From NCBI GenBank assembly GCA_016458225.1, contig JAEMGR010000001.1:434001-498000 (forward strand): 64,000 bases of DNA. The letters run 5' to 3'. The notes beneath the pieces were generated by a model. The model saw nothing but the letters and a program-made list of their open reading frames with translations. It was not told the origin of the DNA and made no database searches. The position numbers were made by a program, and so were the translations under genes. This document shows positions 17,893 to 30,591 of this stretch, one piece after another; the first letter of the stretch is position 1, and each line of letters starts with the position of its first letter. This stretch comes from Myxococcaceae bacterium JPH2. Lineage in GTDB: Bacteria > Myxococcota > Myxococcia > Myxococcales > Myxococcaceae.

Positions 17893-19209
17893 GTGAGCAC
17901 CGCCTTCCGCGCGCCATCGCCGCGCTTGTTCGATTTGACCCTGCCCGACCTGCCCCTGGAGGCCGGCGCGCGGGTGGCGCCGCACCTCGTGAGGGGTTGG
18001 TGGTGGGGGCCCGAGGAGGATCTCCCCTGGCTCCAGTCCCGCGCGCAGGTGCTCTCCGAGGAGGCGGCACGGGAGGCCACGTTCCGCGTCGTGCGTCGCA
18101 CCGCCGCCGAGCAACGCCCCGTCGTCGAGCCGCTGCGTCGCCCCTCGCCTCCCCGCGCGCCCGCGCCCGTGCCCACGGTGCTCGTGGTGCACGCGCTCAC
18201 GGGTGACATGCGCGCGGGTGGCGAGGGCGGCTGGTGGGAGCCCGTCATCGGCCCGGGCCGGGCGCTCGACCCCACGCGCATGCGGCTGCTGTGCTTCAAC
18301 AACCTGGGCTCCTGCTACGGCACCTCGGGTCCGGCGGATGAAGGGTTCCCTCGACGCGTGGACGATTCGCGCTTCGGGCCCGCGGCTCCGCTGGAGAAGG
18401 GAGACCTGCAAGTGGATGAGCGGCTCCTGCCCGCCACGCTGACGCCGTGGGACCAGGCGCGCTCCATCCTGTTCGCGCTGGATGCGCTCGGCGTGGACCA
18501 GGTGGCGCTCGTCACGGGCGGCTCGCTGGGCGGAATGATTGTCTTGTGCCTCGCCGCGTTGGATCCCGAGCGCTTCGCGCGCATGGCCCCCATCGCCACG
18601 GCCGAGTGCGCCTCGGCGTGGGTGGTGGGCTGGAACCACGTGGCGCGCCAAGTGCTGCTGCTGGACCCGGACTATCCCGAGTCCCCCAGACGGGGGCTCG
18701 AGGTGGCGCGGCAGCTCGCCACGCTCACGTATCGCGCCGAGACCGGCCTCGACGCGAAGCAACCTCGACCGCAGGCGTGGTCATCGCGCGCGCTGTATCC
18801 GGTGCAGAGCTACCTGGAGCATCAGGGCGCGAAGCTGGAGGCCCGCTTCGACGGGCGCTCCTACCTCGCGCTGCTCGGCGCGATGGACCATCACGACCTG
18901 TCACGGGTGCCCGAGGCGCGGGGAGGCCCCGGCATCGGCCGCATCCTCGCGAGCACGCTGAGCATCGGAATCGACCGGGACCAGCTCTTCTTCCCCGAGC
19001 ACATGGTGGCGCTCGCGCGGCGCCTGCGCTCGGCGGGCCGCCACGCCGAGCACGCCGTACTGTCCAGTCAGCACGGGCATGACGGCTTCCTCTTGGAGTG
19101 GGGACCGCTGTCGGCCTTGCTCACCCGCGCGCTCGCGCTCCCGCCGGGAGTCCCCGGTCGCGAGACGCGCGCGTCCGCGCTCCCTGGAGCGGTGGCGAGG
19201 AGGACGTGA
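17893..19209 (+). CDS. metX: Homoserine O-acetyltransferase
   Basis: 438 aa from GTG 17893. An alpha/beta-hydrolase acyltransferase transferring acetyl from acetyl-CoA to homoserine. Nucleophile Ser211 sits in TGGSLGGMIV; the Asp and His are probably in GIDRDQLFF and HGHDGFLLEW. It is longer than most MetX (about 380 aa) because of extra N-terminal sequence around residues 45-95 rich in Arg and Pro (RRPSPPRAPAPVP). The stop TGA at 19207-19209 overlaps by one base the ATG of a 40-codon ORF, with AGGAGG just before. That is a strong sign of translational coupling to what follows. Confidence 0.95.
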   Translation: MSTAFRAPSPRLFDLTLPDLPLEAGARVAPHLVRGWWWGPEEDLPWLQSRAQVLSEEAAREATFRVVRRTAAEQRPVVEPLRRPSPPRAPAPVPTVLVVHALTGDMRAGGEGGWWEPVIGPGRALDPTRMRLLCFNNLGSCYGTSGPADEGFPRRVDDSRFGPAAPLEKGDLQVDERLLPATLTPWDQARSILFALDALGVDQVALVTGGSLGGMIVLCLAALDPERFARMAPIATAECASAWVVGWNHVARQVLLLDPDYPESPRRGLEVARQLATLTYRAETGLDAKQPRPQAWSSRALYPVQSYLEHQGAKLEARFDGRSYLALLGAMDHHDLSRVPEARGGPGIGRILASTLSIGIDRDQLFFPEHMVALARRLRSAGRHAEHAVLSSQHGHDGFLLEWGPLSALLTRALALPPGVPGRETRASALPGAVARRT

Positions 19210-19331
19210 TGACGGGGTCACGCTCCATCAGGTGCGACTCACCCCACCGGCTGGACTCAGCAGTCCTACACGCCGCGATCCTTGGGCGCACACCCACTCC
19301 GCCTTGCGCAATCGCGTGCAGGACATGTTGA
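19209..19331 (+). CDS. 40-aa overlapping small ORF A (repeat copy 1)
   Basis: ATG 19209 shares its A with the metX stop (TGATG) and sits 5 nt after AGGAGG, a near-ideal coupled start. The peptide begins MTGSRSIRC, carries HRLDS in the middle and ends CAIACRTC, with four cysteines. It stops at TGA 19329-19331, overlapping the next small ORF. In the repeat register its first codon corresponds to the AK-HSD start codon. It may be a real coupled peptide, a leader peptide, or a relic of duplication. Confidence 0.4.
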   Translation: MTGSRSIRCDSPHRLDSAVLHAAILGRTPTPPCAIACRTC

Positions 19332-19450
19332 CCGCGTTCGTCTATGTCGCGGGGTACTTGCCCACTCGGCTGGACTCAGAGGGCCGACACGTTTCACTTC
19401 CTGCGCGCGCACCCACTCTGTCCCGCTCGGTGGCTCTCAAGACTTCATGA
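19325..19450 (+). CDS. 41-aa overlapping small ORF B (repeat copy 2)
   Basis: ATG 19325 (GCAGGAC just upstream) overlaps the stop of ORF A as ATGTTGA. The stop TGA 19448-19450 overlaps the AK-HSD start as ATGA. It begins MLTAFVYVAGYLPTRLDSEG. Compared with the AK-HSD N-terminus it keeps the pattern Thr-Ala-x-Val-Tyr-Val-x-x-Tyr-x-Pro-x-x-Leu-Asp; compared with ORF A it keeps Arg-Leu-Asp-Ser. Conservation at the amino-acid level in the same register suggests these frames were, or are, translated. Confidence 0.4.
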   Translation: MLTAFVYVAGYLPTRLDSEGRHVSLPARAPTLSRSVALKTS

Positions 19451-21960
19451 CCGCTCCTGTCTATGTCACGCGCTATGCGCCCCTCTTGCTCGACACCGCG
19501 GAGGGACTCGCGTCCATCGCATTGCAGCTCGCTCGCGAGCCCGCGCCGGCCACGCGCGTGGCCGTGCTCTCCTCTCCGTCGTGGCTGACCGCGCGCTTGG
19601 AGGCCGCGCTCGCGGAGTCCCTTCAGGGCTCCGCTGCGCGCGCTCGGCAGGAACTCGATGCCGTGCTCGCGCGGGGCCTGCTGCTCTTGGAAGAAGCGGA
19701 GCGCAGACTCGGAGCGTCGAACCCGCTGGCGACTCCGGAGGAGGACGGCGCTCGCTACCTCGGTTCATGGCTGGAGCCCGCACGTCGCGCGCTGGACGGC
19801 ACCCGCTCGACCCGTGAGCCCAACGTCTCGCTGGAGCAAGCCGTGTCCGGCGCGGGCGAGCGGTTCACGGTCGCACTGCTCTCGCGCTTGCTGGCCCGAC
19901 GCGGCCTGCCCACGCTGGAGGTGGACGCCGCGGACTGGGTGGTGCTGGAGGCAGCACCTGGCCCGGCGCGAGTCAGTCGCGAACACACGCGCGCCCGCGT
20001 GGCGGACCTGCGCGTCCAGTGGGAGGGCCGCACGAGCCTCCACGCGAGTGGCTTCGGACGAAGCCACGATGCACGCACCCTCCTCCGCGTCCCGGGCGGC
20101 GCGGACGAGACGGCCGCCGTGCTCGCCGCGCTCCTCGGCACGCCCCTCACGCTCTGGACGGATGTCCCCGGGGTGATGACCGCGGATCCCGCCTACGTCG
20201 CGGATGCGCGACCCGTACCGCACCTGAGCTACACGGAGGCGCTGGAGCTGGCGCACCTGGGCATGACCACGCTGCATCCTCGCGCGCTGGCCATGCTGCG
20301 CGACGCGGACGTGCCCTCCCGCGTCCGGCACCTCGAGCACCCCGAGGAGCCGGGCACGCTCATCGACTCGCCTGGTTCGCGCGACGGCAGCCTGCCCACG
20401 TGCGTGGTGTCTCTGGAAGACCTCGCGCTGCTCTCCCTGGAGAGTGGCGCGGTGGAGTCCGCGCGACACGTGGGCCCGCGCGCGCTCCAGGCGCTGGAGG
20501 CCGAGGGCCTCACGGCGTGGATGGCCGCGCAGTCTCCTCCCGGCCATGCGGTGGCCATCGTGCTGCCGCGCGCCCAGGTCGCTCGCGCGGAAGAAGTCCT
20601 ACGCCGCGCGCTGGCCACGGAGCTGGAACGTGGTGAGCTGGTTCCACCTCGCCTTCGCGCCCCCGTGACGCAGGTCGCGCTCGTGGCCGAGGCCATGGGC
20701 CAGGGCGTGAACGTGGCGGGACGCCTGTTCCATCCCATCGGAGCGCTCGGCATCAACGTGCGCGCGGTGGCGCAGGCGGCGACCGCGCGTTCGCTGTCCT
20801 TCGTGGTGGATGGTCCGGACACCTCGCTCGCGGTGCGCACGGTGCACGCGGCCTTCCACATCGCCCACGAGGAAGTCAGCCTGCTCGTGCTCGGACATGG
20901 CACGGTGGGAAGTCACCTCCTGGAGCAGATCCGCGCGCAGCAGGAGACGCTCGCGCGCGAGCACGGCGTTCAGCTCCATCTCGTGGGGCTCGCGGACAGT
21001 CGCCGCGTCCTCTTCTCCCCGGGAGGCATTCCGCCCAAGCAGTGGCGTGAGCGCATCGAGAGCGTGCCCATCGGCGCCTCGCCTCCCGTGGTGCGCGCAC
21101 TGCTGGAACCGCTGCGCCGGCTGCCCGCGCCCATCCTGGTGGACTGCACCGCCGCCGAGGACATGGAGTCGCTCTACCTGGAGGCCTTCCAGCGGGGCAT
21201 CCACGTCGTCGCCGCGAACAAGAAGCCACTGACGGGCTCGCTGGAGACGTGGGAGCGATTGCGCGGCACGGCCCGTCATCATCACCGGGCCCACCACTAC
21301 GAGACCACCGTGGGCGCGGGCCTGCCCGTCATCCAGACGCTCAAGGACCTGGTGCGCACGGGCGACTGCGTGCACCGCGTGGAGGGCTCGTTCTCGGGAA
21401 CGCTCGGCTACCTCAGCGATGAGCTGATGCGCGGCGTGCCCTTGTCCCGCGCCGTGCGCACCGCTCGGGAGCGAGGCTTCACGGAGCCCCATCCTCGCGA
21501 GGACCTCGCCGGAACGGACGCCGCGCGCAAGGCGCTCATCCTCGCGCGAGAGATGGGCCTGCCCCTGTCCTTGGAGGATGTGACGGTGGAGCCGTTTGTC
21601 CCGCAGGCGCTGCTGGAAGAGCGCGATGTGGAGCGCTTCCTCGCGTCGCTCGAAGGGCTCGATGGCACCTTCACCCAGCGCATCGAGGGACTGCGGGCCG
21701 AGGGCAAGACGCTGCGCTACCTGGCCCGCATCGACCCGCGCGCGGAGGACGGCGCGGTGCTCCGCGTGGGCCCGATGGCCGTGGGCCCCGAGCACCCCGC
21801 GACGCGACTGCGAGGCTCGGAGGCGTTCGTGGCCTTCGCCACCGAGCGCTACGCGGACTTCCCGCTGCTCGTGCAGGGCGCGGGAGCCGGCGGCGCGGTC
21901 ACCGCGGCCGGCGTGCTCGCGGACATCCTGAAGATTGCCCAGGCCCTGCGCGGGCGCTGA
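19447..21960 (+). CDS. Bifunctional aspartokinase/homoserine dehydrogenase with degenerate kinase N-terminus
   Basis: 837 aa with ThrA/MetL architecture: aspartokinase region about 1-310, ACT-type regulatory segment about 320-470, homoserine dehydrogenase 476-837. The dehydrogenase is intact: NAD(P) motif LGHGTVG (482-488), catalytic AANKKPL, then TVGAGLPVI, GSFSGTLGY and EPHPREDLAGTDAARKAL. It reduces aspartate semialdehyde to homoserine. The kinase half keeps GERF (137-140) and LWTDVPGVMTADP (236-248). The invariant Lys-Phe-Gly-Gly-Thr-Ser near the N-terminus is replaced by Arg-Tyr-Ala-Pro-Leu-Leu (9-14), and the Gly-Ser-Asp loop by GGAD (217-220). Kinase activity is therefore doubtful. The start ATG overlaps small ORF B. 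Confidence 0.9.
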   Translation: MTAPVYVTRYAPLLLDTAEGLASIALQLAREPAPATRVAVLSSPSWLTARLEAALAESLQGSAARARQELDAVLARGLLLLEEAERRLGASNPLATPEEDGARYLGSWLEPARRALDGTRSTREPNVSLEQAVSGAGERFTVALLSRLLARRGLPTLEVDAADWVVLEAAPGPARVSREHTRARVADLRVQWEGRTSLHASGFGRSHDARTLLRVPGGADETAAVLAALLGTPLTLWTDVPGVMTADPAYVADARPVPHLSYTEALELAHLGMTTLHPRALAMLRDADVPSRVRHLEHPEEPGTLIDSPGSRDGSLPTCVVSLEDLALLSLESGAVESARHVGPRALQALEAEGLTAWMAAQSPPGHAVAIVLPRAQVARAEEVLRRALATELERGELVPPRLRAPVTQVALVAEAMGQGVNVAGRLFHPIGALGINVRAVAQAATARSLSFVVDGPDTSLAVRTVHAAFHIAHEEVSLLVLGHGTVGSHLLEQIRAQQETLAREHGVQLHLVGLADSRRVLFSPGGIPPKQWRERIESVPIGASPPVVRALLEPLRRLPAPILVDCTAAEDMESLYLEAFQRGIHVVAANKKPLTGSLETWERLRGTARHHHRAHHYETTVGAGLPVIQTLKDLVRTGDCVHRVEGSFSGTLGYLSDELMRGVPLSRAVRTARERGFTEPHPREDLAGTDAARKALILAREMGLPLSLEDVTVEPFVPQALLEERDVERFLASLEGLDGTFTQRIEGLRAEGKTLRYLARIDPRAEDGAVLRVGPMAVGPEHPATRLRGSEAFVAFATERYADFPLLVQGAGAGGAVTAAGVLADILKIAQALRGR

Positions 21961-28527: not shown

Positions 28528-30591
28528 TCAGACGCGGAAGCGCCGGACCTCGGCGCGGAGGATCTCCGCCTGGCGCTGGAGGTTGTCGATGGCTTCTTCC
28601 AACTGGCGCACCGAGCGCGTCTGGTGCTCGGAGACGCCCTTGATGGTCTCCACCGCCTTGAGCACCTGCTCGCTGCCCTTGGTCTGCTCCTTCTGGGCGC
28701 GGTTCAGGTGGGTGACCATCTCGTTGATGCTCTCGATGGAGCGGGTGATCTGCTTGCTGCCGTGCGCCTGCTCCTGACTGGAGCGCTGCACGTGCTGGGT
28801 GAGCGCCTTCATCCGCTCGGCGCTCTTCATGATCTGCTCGCCGCCCTTGGCCTGCTCGTTGGAGGCCTTGGAGATCTGCTGCACCGTCTCCGAGATGCGG
28901 TGGATGGCGGCCGTCACCTGCTTGCTGCCGCGCGCCTGCTCCACCGTGGCGCGGGCAATGGCCTTCACCATCTGCGTGGACTTCTGCGTGCTGTCGTTGA
29001 TCTTCCGGAGCGCGCCCTCGGCCTCGCGCCCCAGCTGCACGCCGTCCTCCACGTTCTTCACGCCCTGGTTCATCACCACCACGGCGTTGCGGCTCTCCTC
29101 CTGGATGCTGCGCACCAGCTCGGCGATCTCCTTCGTGGAGGCGCCGGTGCGCTCGGCCAGGTCCTTGATCTCCTCGGCCACCACCGCGAAGCCCTTGCCG
29201 TGCTCACCGGCTTGCGCGGCGATGATGGCGGCGTTGAGCGCCAGGAGGTTGGTCTGCTCGGCCACGTCGTCGATGACGTTGAGGATGTTGCCAATCTCGG
29301 AGATGTGGCGCCCCAGGCTGTCGATGACGCCCGCCGCGCTGCGGCTGTTCTCCTTGATGCGGTCGATGCCCGACAGCGTCTTGCGCAGCGCCTCCACGCC
29401 CGTCTGCGCGTCCTCGAAGACCTGCTCGGACAGGCGCGCCGTCTCGTTGGCGTTGGCCTCCACCTGCCCAATCGCCGCGTCCATCTGGCTGATGGCCGAG
29501 GACGTGTCCTCCGTGGACGTGGACAGCGCGGTGATGTTGAGCGCCACTTCCTTGATGGAGAACGTCATCTCCTCGATGGCGCTGGTCGTCTCCTCCACGC
29601 TGGCCGCCATGGCCTGCACGTTCTCCGCGACCTCGTCGTTGGTGGCGGCCATCTCCATGATGGAGGAGCTGCTCTCCTCGGCGCTCTGGTAGAGCACCTC
29701 GACGTTCTCCGCGATGCCGCGGAGCGAGGCCATCATCTGCACCATGGAGGAGGACGTCTCCTCCACGCGCGACTGCACCGTGCCCGCGCCCGAGGACACC
29801 GTGGTGCCCGTGCGGTGGATCTGCTCGATGACGCCCGCCACCACGTCGGACACGCCGCGCACGCGGCCCAGCGTGTCGCGCCAGCTCTGGCCCATGCGGT
29901 TGAGCGCCTCGGCCAGCTCGCCCAGCTCGTCCGTGGAGTGGCGCACCTCCACGCGGCCGGTGAGGTCCGCCTCCGCGAGCTTGCGCGCCATGGACATCAT
30001 CGCGTCCAGCGGCAGGATGATGAACGCGTGCGAGATGAGGAACGCCACCAGCAGGAACAGCACCAGCCCCACGCCGAACGCCGCGAGCACCGTGTGGCGC
30101 AGCGACTGGAGCACCGGGTTGAGGCGCGTGAAGTCCACCACCACCATCACCTGCCCCGTGGCACCACCCGCGAGCGCCACCTGCTCCACCACCGCCACGT
30201 CCCCGTTGGAGAACGTCAGCCCATCCAGCGGAGGAAGGGGCGAGCGCGCATGACGCGCGCGCAGCTCGTCGGTGAACCAGGGCGGCGGCGTGAGGGGCGA
30301 GGCGGCGAGCACGTCGCCCGACGCGGACAGCACCGCCACGACCTTGAAGTCATCATCCGGGCGGTACAGGCGCTCCAATCCGAGCGGAGCCTGCGTGCCT
30401 GACTGCCCCGCGAGCAGCCCTTGGAGTTCCTGGGCCTTGTCGTGTCCGTGCGCGAGCAGCCGCTGCACCAGATGGTCTTCCACCTGTGCGGGAACGACGA
30501 AGTAGAGCGCGCCCAGGATGAGCGCCAGGGCCAGCGCGAACGAGCCGAGGAGGATGCCCCGGAGACCGGGTTTCTTGAAGCGACGTGCCAA
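28528..30591 (-). CDS. Methyl-accepting chemotaxis protein with 28-residue C-terminal repeats
   Basis: About 687 aa, apparently from TTG 30591 (MARRFKKPGLRG); no ATG fits and no clear ribosome-binding site is visible, so the start is uncertain. TM1 13-33, periplasmic sensor 34-167, TM2 168-190, HAMP about 190-245, then a long methyl-accepting coiled coil with hairpin tip EQTNLLALNAAIIAAQAGEHGKG split across DDVAEQTNLLAL and AGEHGKGFAVVAEEI. Residues 551-662 are four tandem 28-aa units each starting Glu-Gln-(Ala/Thr)-x-Gly. It would signal through CheA/CheW-type proteins, none of which is nearby. Confidence 0.9.
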   Translation of the reverse strand: MARRFKKPGLRGILLGSFALALALILGALYFVVPAQVEDHLVQRLLAHGHDKAQELQGLLAGQSGTQAPLGLERLYRPDDDFKVVAVLSASGDVLAASPLTPPPWFTDELRARHARSPLPPLDGLTFSNGDVAVVEQVALAGGATGQVMVVVDFTRLNPVLQSLRHTVLAAFGVGLVLFLLVAFLISHAFIILPLDAMMSMARKLAEADLTGRVEVRHSTDELGELAEALNRMGQSWRDTLGRVRGVSDVVAGVIEQIHRTGTTVSSGAGTVQSRVEETSSSMVQMMASLRGIAENVEVLYQSAEESSSSIMEMAATNDEVAENVQAMAASVEETTSAIEEMTFSIKEVALNITALSTSTEDTSSAISQMDAAIGQVEANANETARLSEQVFEDAQTGVEALRKTLSGIDRIKENSRSAAGVIDSLGRHISEIGNILNVIDDVAEQTNLLALNAAIIAAQAGEHGKGFAVVAEEIKDLAERTGASTKEIAELVRSIQEESRNAVVVMNQGVKNVEDGVQLGREAEGALRKINDSTQKSTQMVKAIARATVEQARGSKQVTAAIHRISETVQQISKASNEQAKGGEQIMKSAERMKALTQHVQRSSQEQAHGSKQITRSIESINEMVTHLNRAQKEQTKGSEQVLKAVETIKGVSEHQTRSVRQLEEAIDNLQRQAEILRAEVRRFRV
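28606..28941 (-). repeat. Four tandem 84-nt (28-aa) coding repeats in the chemoreceptor gene
   Basis: Units begin at residues 551, 579, 607 and 635: EQARGSKQV, EQAKGGEQI, EQAHGSKQI and EQTKGSEQV, each exactly 28 residues (four heptads) apart. The length suits a register-preserving extension of the signalling coiled coil. Confidence 0.8.

Follow-up and report, generated by a model that had tools for sequence, protein, structure and literature searches.

Two short reading frames between metX and a fused aspartokinase-homoserine dehydrogenase gene in Myxococcaceae bacterium JPH2 probably derive from a tandem duplication of the gene junction

Organization of the metX/AK-HSD region

We analyzed a stretch of 64,000 nucleotides (nt) from the predatory soil bacterium Myxococcaceae bacterium JPH2 (contig JAEMGR010000001.1), called the window in the following, in which metX is followed by a second gene of the methionine pathway, that for a fused aspartokinase-homoserine dehydrogenase (AK-HSD; HSD, homoserine dehydrogenase). 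Between the two genes lie two short open reading frames (ORFs), A and B, which belong to an array of diverged repeats of 119 nt (Table 1). The names metX and metY follow an earlier reading of the same DNA (the original prediction) and the pathway context.

The original prediction had reported ORFs of 40 and 41 amino acids at this place, and the sequence bears this out. The stop/start overlaps described there are also present, namely TGATG at 19207-19211 (metX/A), ATGTTGA at 19325-19331 (A/B) and ATGA at 19447-19450 (B/AK-HSD). One correction is needed: the start of ORF B in the register of the array is the TTG at 19328, which gives an overlap TTGA, and the ATG at 19325 is an in-frame alternative. 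The metX stop codon TGA at 19207 is followed by a second in-frame TGA at 19210. In Pfam, neither ORF A nor ORF B had a match.

Table 1. Coordinates of the genes, ORFs and array segments at the metX/AK-HSD junction of the window.
Feature	Positions	Strand	Description
metX	17893-19209	+	ORF; homoserine O-acetyltransferase-like, alpha/beta hydrolase fold; GTG start; Pfam Abhydrolase_1 1.3e-21
Upstream half of the array	19167-19208	+	~42 nt preceding the first start; matches the 3' portions of units A and B
ORF A (40 aa + stop)	19209-19331	+	unit 1 = 19209-19327: AK-HSD-like head of ~77 nt + metX-like tail of ~42 nt
ORF B (41 aa + stop)	19325-19450	+	unit 2 = 19328-19446; overlaps AK-HSD as ATGA
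Downstream, incomplete part of the array	19447-19525	+	first ~79 nt of AK-HSD; delimited by bins of offset-119 matches
AK-HSD gene (837 aa)	19447-21960	+	assigned by Pfam; HSD part canonical, kinase motifs lost

The repeated unit is a gene junction

Comparison of the region 19209-19446 with the sequence 119 nt downstream showed an identity of 54.6%, the highest value among the 380 offsets from 20 to 399, for which the mean was 28.2% (sd 3.3%; z = 8.05). In the register of position 19209 the number of matching positions was 72/119 for A and B, 55/119 for A and the third copy and 58/119 for B and the third copy. The original prediction of three copies exactly 119 nt apart was therefore right in its periodicity, but it took the third copy as the start of the AK-HSD gene and overlooked that the array already starts within metX. 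The homology extends from 19167 to about 19525, covering the final 42 nt of metX and about 79 nt at the beginning of the AK-HSD gene, where the third copy ceases incomplete. The onset in metX is sharp, with the offset-119 matches per 20 nt rising from 6 to 12 at 19167; at the downstream edge they drop from 10/20 (bin 19387) to 4/20 (bin 19407).

A self-comparison of the complete 64 kb, using segments of 110 nt and offsets of 40 to 400, resulted in 295 clusters at a level of 55/110, and the metX/AK-HSD array was the second strongest of these. Among the 25 matches listed, its offsets of 119 and 238 are the sole ones not divisible by three; the remaining listed clusters look like codon-periodic coding repeats. 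The array was reported neither by Tandem Repeats Finder nor by a second repeat finder. When 19203-19480 was searched against the JPH2 genome at the DNA level, it matched itself alone. The G+C content of the spacer (19210-19446) is 64.6%, compared to 70.8% for the whole window.

The overhangs on both sides, 42 nt in metX and about 77-79 nt in AK-HSD, add up to about 119 nt, which is one unit. A comparison of the junctions metX|A, A|B and B|AK-HSD in all pairs revealed identities of 55-61% over the 62 nt on the right side and of 60-64% over the 42 nt on the left. For the 42 nt left of the metX|A start, the identity to the equivalent positions was 64% at A|B and 60% at B|AK-HSD. Over the 33 nt beyond these, the identity of A|B to B|AK-HSD is still 64%, whereas metX|A shares 24% and 21% with the two. 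The left 42 nt are thus common to all three junctions and the next 33 nt to the interior two alone, which is the pattern expected if the repeated unit is a junction. Since the array starts inside metX and the third copy is partial, we conclude that what was repeated is the gene junction rather than the gene start. In agreement with this, a model unit assembled from 77 nt of AK-HSD and 42 nt of metX aligned to A with z = 7.0 and to B with z = 6.7 (300 shuffles; the z values of this and all following unit alignments are based on simple base shuffles).

The reading frames follow from this arrangement. Where the two genes overlap as ATGA, the AK-HSD start precedes the metX stop by one base, and a copy placed n bases further on closes in frame if n = 2 (mod 3). 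Because 119 = 2 (mod 3), each copy fuses the start of AK-HSD in frame to the end of metX and finishes with a new stop/start overlap. Frames of this kind are present at birth, and therefore no selection is needed for their existence. As judged from the sequence, ORFs A and B are the chimeras expected of such a duplication, each combining an AK-HSD start with a metX end.

Distribution of the array in related genomes

A family-wide search covered 96 genomes and contained one congener, Citreicoccus inhibens M34 (G001), so that the tests within the genus refer to one genome pair. The search of genome contigs for AK-HSD gave three loci, with M34 as the only near relative. In the nearest sampled genus (g26), which is probably Corallococcus, metX ends directly on AK-HSD as a bare ATGA in all 16 genomes, without copies, and in each of them the match to the window starts 8 nt before the AK-HSD start. 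The other genera contributed 12 loci with metX adjoining AK-HSD or HSD, and none of them has the copies. Separate genes were present in seven of these, with the start located relative to the metX stop at -4 nt (L005, L006, L013, L015 and L018), +3 nt (L010) or +13 nt (L017); in the other five (L027-L031) metX and HSD form one open frame, an in-frame fusion. At five further metX loci from the genera g23, g12, g8 and g16 (L071-L075) no full AK-HSD is located downstream, apart from a weak partial HSD match in L073. As no full AK-HSD follows metX there, these loci do not sharpen the date of the duplication.

In M34 the distance from the metX stop to the AK-HSD start is 349 nt, corresponding to about three units, and the spacer shows self-homology at offsets of 111-119 (E = 2.4e-11). 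Its G+C content is 71.7%. Unit 3 aligned to B with z = 21.8 and is its ortholog; unit 2 resembles both A (z = 6.9) and B (z = 7.6). Unit 1, with a length of 112 nt, aligned more weakly: z was 2.0 with A, 4.7 with B, and 3.9 and 3.6 with the other M34 units. This spacer lacks the A|B stop and start and is instead filled by a single ORF of 117 codons with an ATGA at both ends. Every junction of the two array genomes hence shows a near-zero distance or a stop/start overlap: TGATG, TTGA (or ATGTTGA) and ATGA in the window and twice ATGA in M34. Missing copies or freely broken frames in relatives, which the original prediction had named as evidence against it, are largely what was observed, given the 16 Corallococcus-like genomes without copies and the different spacer length and absent A|B boundary of M34. 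The simplest history read from these sequences would be a single gain on the Citreicoccus stem, followed by a change in copy number and by drift.

Selection on ORFs A and B

To compare the window with M34 we used the ratio of nonsynonymous to synonymous substitution rates (dN/dS). The values were 0.111 for AK-HSD and 0.095 for metX, and 1.57 for ORF B (39 codons from one genome pair), where 16.5 nonsynonymous changes in 83.2 sites stand beside 4.5 synonymous changes in 33.8 sites and the differences are distributed over the codon positions as 7/9/5. The two other frames across B gave 0.90 and 0.41. The second half of A (13 codons) gave 0.63, which is too little sequence to weigh. A and B differ from each other at 15/16/15 first, second and third codon positions, i.e. 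without position bias. Neither comparison, that of dN/dS between the window and M34 or that of the codon positions between A and B, showed a sign of constraint on the A and B peptides at the protein level. These results suggest that the peptides have no function and that the array is drifting. The amino acid similarity between B and the enzyme, which had been put forward as a sign of translation, does not hold as such, because coding DNA was duplicated in a unit of 2 (mod 3) and resemblance to the enzyme follows from the copying.

An N-terminal extension of AK-HSD was considered as a further candidate, since in the window no stop interrupts the AK-HSD-phase frame between the metX stops and the gene. 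It was rejected because the M34 spacer has three stops in this frame.

The last 20 codons of metX (19147-19206) evolved far faster than the gene as a whole, with a dN between the window and M34 of 0.27 compared to 0.03.

Proposed origin of the spacer

We regard it as likely that the spacer arose by tandem duplication of the metX/AK-HSD junction and that the copies then diverged. The event would have taken place on the Citreicoccus lineage after the split from the probable Corallococcus, and the array would now be drifting. The duplicated unit would comprise ~42 nt from the end of metX, the ATGA-type overlap and ~77 nt from the beginning of AK-HSD, and each extra copy would have been born as an ORF of about 40 codons flanked by its own termination-reinitiation site. 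That the event occurred on the Citreicoccus lineage is something we infer from the distribution of the copies. A random insertion of 238 nt would be expected to uncouple AK-HSD from metX, whereas a copy of the junction would supply its own coupling site. The insertion may have been tolerated because ribosomes leaving metX passed from ORF to ORF to AK-HSD.

Published work on Escherichia coli gives a framework for this step. According to PMC10666635, coupling by termination and reinitiation requires an overlap or a very short distance; with a gap of 38 nt, two gene pairs lost 80-90% of their reinitiation and a third lost all of it, whereas the final 15 nt of the upstream gene were enough for reinitiation. 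Since 15 nt sufficed there, a copied junction holds enough sequence for a coupling site. Translation of AK-HSD may depend on the micro-ORFs.

Several points weigh against the proposed duplication or against parts of it. The placement of the breakpoints is uncertain by about 10 bases. Unit 1 of M34 is weakly recognizable, and 13 of 300 shuffles aligned to A as well as this unit did. The array was found in two genomes, the window and M34, which means that the selection tests have low power and that the origin is bracketed but not dated. Across B, the frame in the phase of AK-HSD is the one with the dN/dS of 0.41 (10.0 nonsynonymous and 9.0 synonymous changes), although three stops interrupt it in the M34 spacer. 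The relay step has no statistical support: in 3000 dinucleotide-shuffled spacers each for the window and M34, a tight chain of coupled ORFs occurred in 18% and 40%, respectively, and under looser rules in 24-39% and 45-61%. The tight chain of the window moreover requires the TTG start, and its A|B junction is absent from M34.

Alternative explanations

The alternative that survives best, although we consider it unlikely, is a selected translational relay, in which a chain of ORFs from metX to AK-HSD is kept whatever peptide it encodes and AK-HSD relies on reinitiation. It is favored by the unbroken chain in both genomes with the array (metX-A-B-AK-HSD in the window and metX-ORF117-AK-HSD in M34), by the low proportion of shuffled window spacers that contain such a chain, and by the loss of coupling across long gaps elsewhere (PMC10666635). 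The two genomes are, however, related and not independent, and for such a pair chance levels of 18% and 40% are not significant. In a neutral simulation the frame of a unit was still open in about half of the runs at 57-64% identity, and the start and stop at A|B are unconserved in M34. The Shine-Dalgarno sequence, with the consensus GGAGGT, was also inspected. The best match upstream of AK-HSD was 4/6 at 12 nt and that of ORF A 5/6 at 4 nt, as the relay would lead one to expect; since metX itself scores 4/6 (at 5 nt), the weak match of AK-HSD is weak evidence.

A more far-reaching form of the same idea, to which we give slightly less credit still, is that of a self-compatible insertion. Any junction copy of 2 (mod 3) would be a complete relay cistron, so that spacers could grow without uncoupling the genes, and Citreicoccus would keep a relay that feeds ribosomes to the homoserine dehydrogenase, with two units in one species and about three, in the form of the 117-codon ORF, in the other.

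A second alternative, which appears improbable, is that the duplication predates the divergence from Corallococcus, where recombination between the copies later removed it. Tandem arrays collapse easily, and with an identity of only ~60% between A and B the event is not recent. On the other hand, the copies are missing in all 16 Corallococcus-like genomes and in all 12 loci of other genera. In its first 62 nt, B is also nearer to the AK-HSD of the window (0.61) than to four Corallococcus-like ones (0.47-0.50), a difference that unequal rates could mimic. Loss from Corallococcus after an older duplication would speak against the timing given above, and it is the less parsimonious history.

We see hardly any chance that ORFs A and B are conserved small proteins, as the coding argument of the original prediction had it: their frames are open and B resembles the N-terminus of AK-HSD, but the dN/dS of B far exceeds that of both flanking genes, A against B shows no codon-position bias, Pfam had no match, and the A stop and the B start are absent from M34. 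A cis-regulatory RNA (attenuator or riboswitch) of the methionine/threonine pathway is just as improbable, since in spite of the position between two pathway genes and the repeated architecture, Rfam gave 0 matches at E <= 1 over 18900-19900, the folding energy of 19170-19500 was no better than that of 100 shuffles (z = 0.09), no terminator-like or promoter-like sites were found in 19000-19700, and the M34 spacer has diverged rapidly and to another length.

Comparison with known systems

With regard to the duplicated junction, the micro-ORFs appear to be arithmetic by-products of a lineage-specific event. The overlaps at the window and M34 junctions are of the same type as in the termination-reinitiation gene pairs with ATGA or TGATG described by Huber et al. 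2019 (PMC6728339) and Huber et al. 2023 (PMC10666635), and the junction of the Corallococcus-like genomes is likewise ATGA. In contrast to those pairs, the overlap itself has been copied in tandem here, with short chimeric ORFs in between, and coupling at these junctions is putative. Partial tandem gene duplications with decaying fragments are also similar, as they consist of short head-to-tail copies that diverge without protein constraint and result in spacer lengths that vary between species. The segment copied here differs in that it straddles two genes, which leads to in-frame chimeras with a start and a stop. Finally, intergenic regulatory small ORFs, for example that upstream of a Salmonella Mg2+ transporter gene (PMC8092293), likewise lie between operon genes, but no conserved peptide and no unusual structure was found at the metX/AK-HSD junction. 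Among the literature matches listed (titles and beginnings of abstracts of open-licence papers), none reported that a stop/start junction had been duplicated in tandem.

The duplication offers a concrete route by which short ORFs could arise between coupled genes, as a duplicated stop/start overlap provides start, stop and frame by arithmetic. It is at the same time a warning that such ORFs, or their likeness to the next gene, are not evidence of function. If the relay were true, it would represent a natural test of ribosome passage across operon spacers.

The AK-HSD enzyme and further repeats in the window

The original prediction had called the AK-HSD protein a key branch-point enzyme, and this designation probably does not fit its kinase domain. 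The Pfam search identified Homoserine_dh (5.6e-43), NAD_binding_3 and ACT_9, and AA_kinase from profile position 74 onward only; aspartokinase chains from the PDB match from residue 99 on. KFGGSS and GRNGSD are motifs of the aspartokinase domain. In an alignment both were absent from the sequences of the window, M34 and three Corallococcus-like relatives, and kept in five homologues of other genera. The N-terminus RYAP of the window protein is found in all 16 Corallococcus-like genomes. A second AK-HSD with both kinase motifs is encoded elsewhere in the same genome (G000:C9:413104-415377, within locus L080, G000:C9:412700-415700) and is 50% identical to the first. Judging by these motifs, the kinase domain of the window's AK-HSD is probably inactive, which would make the protein a homoserine dehydrogenase and not a bifunctional branch-point enzyme.

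Strong constant-offset repeats were also detected at 28664-29025 and 29490-29768, with offsets of 84 and 168 nt and up to 70% identity over 110 nt. Both offsets are multiples of three, and these repeats probably belong to a repetitive protein.

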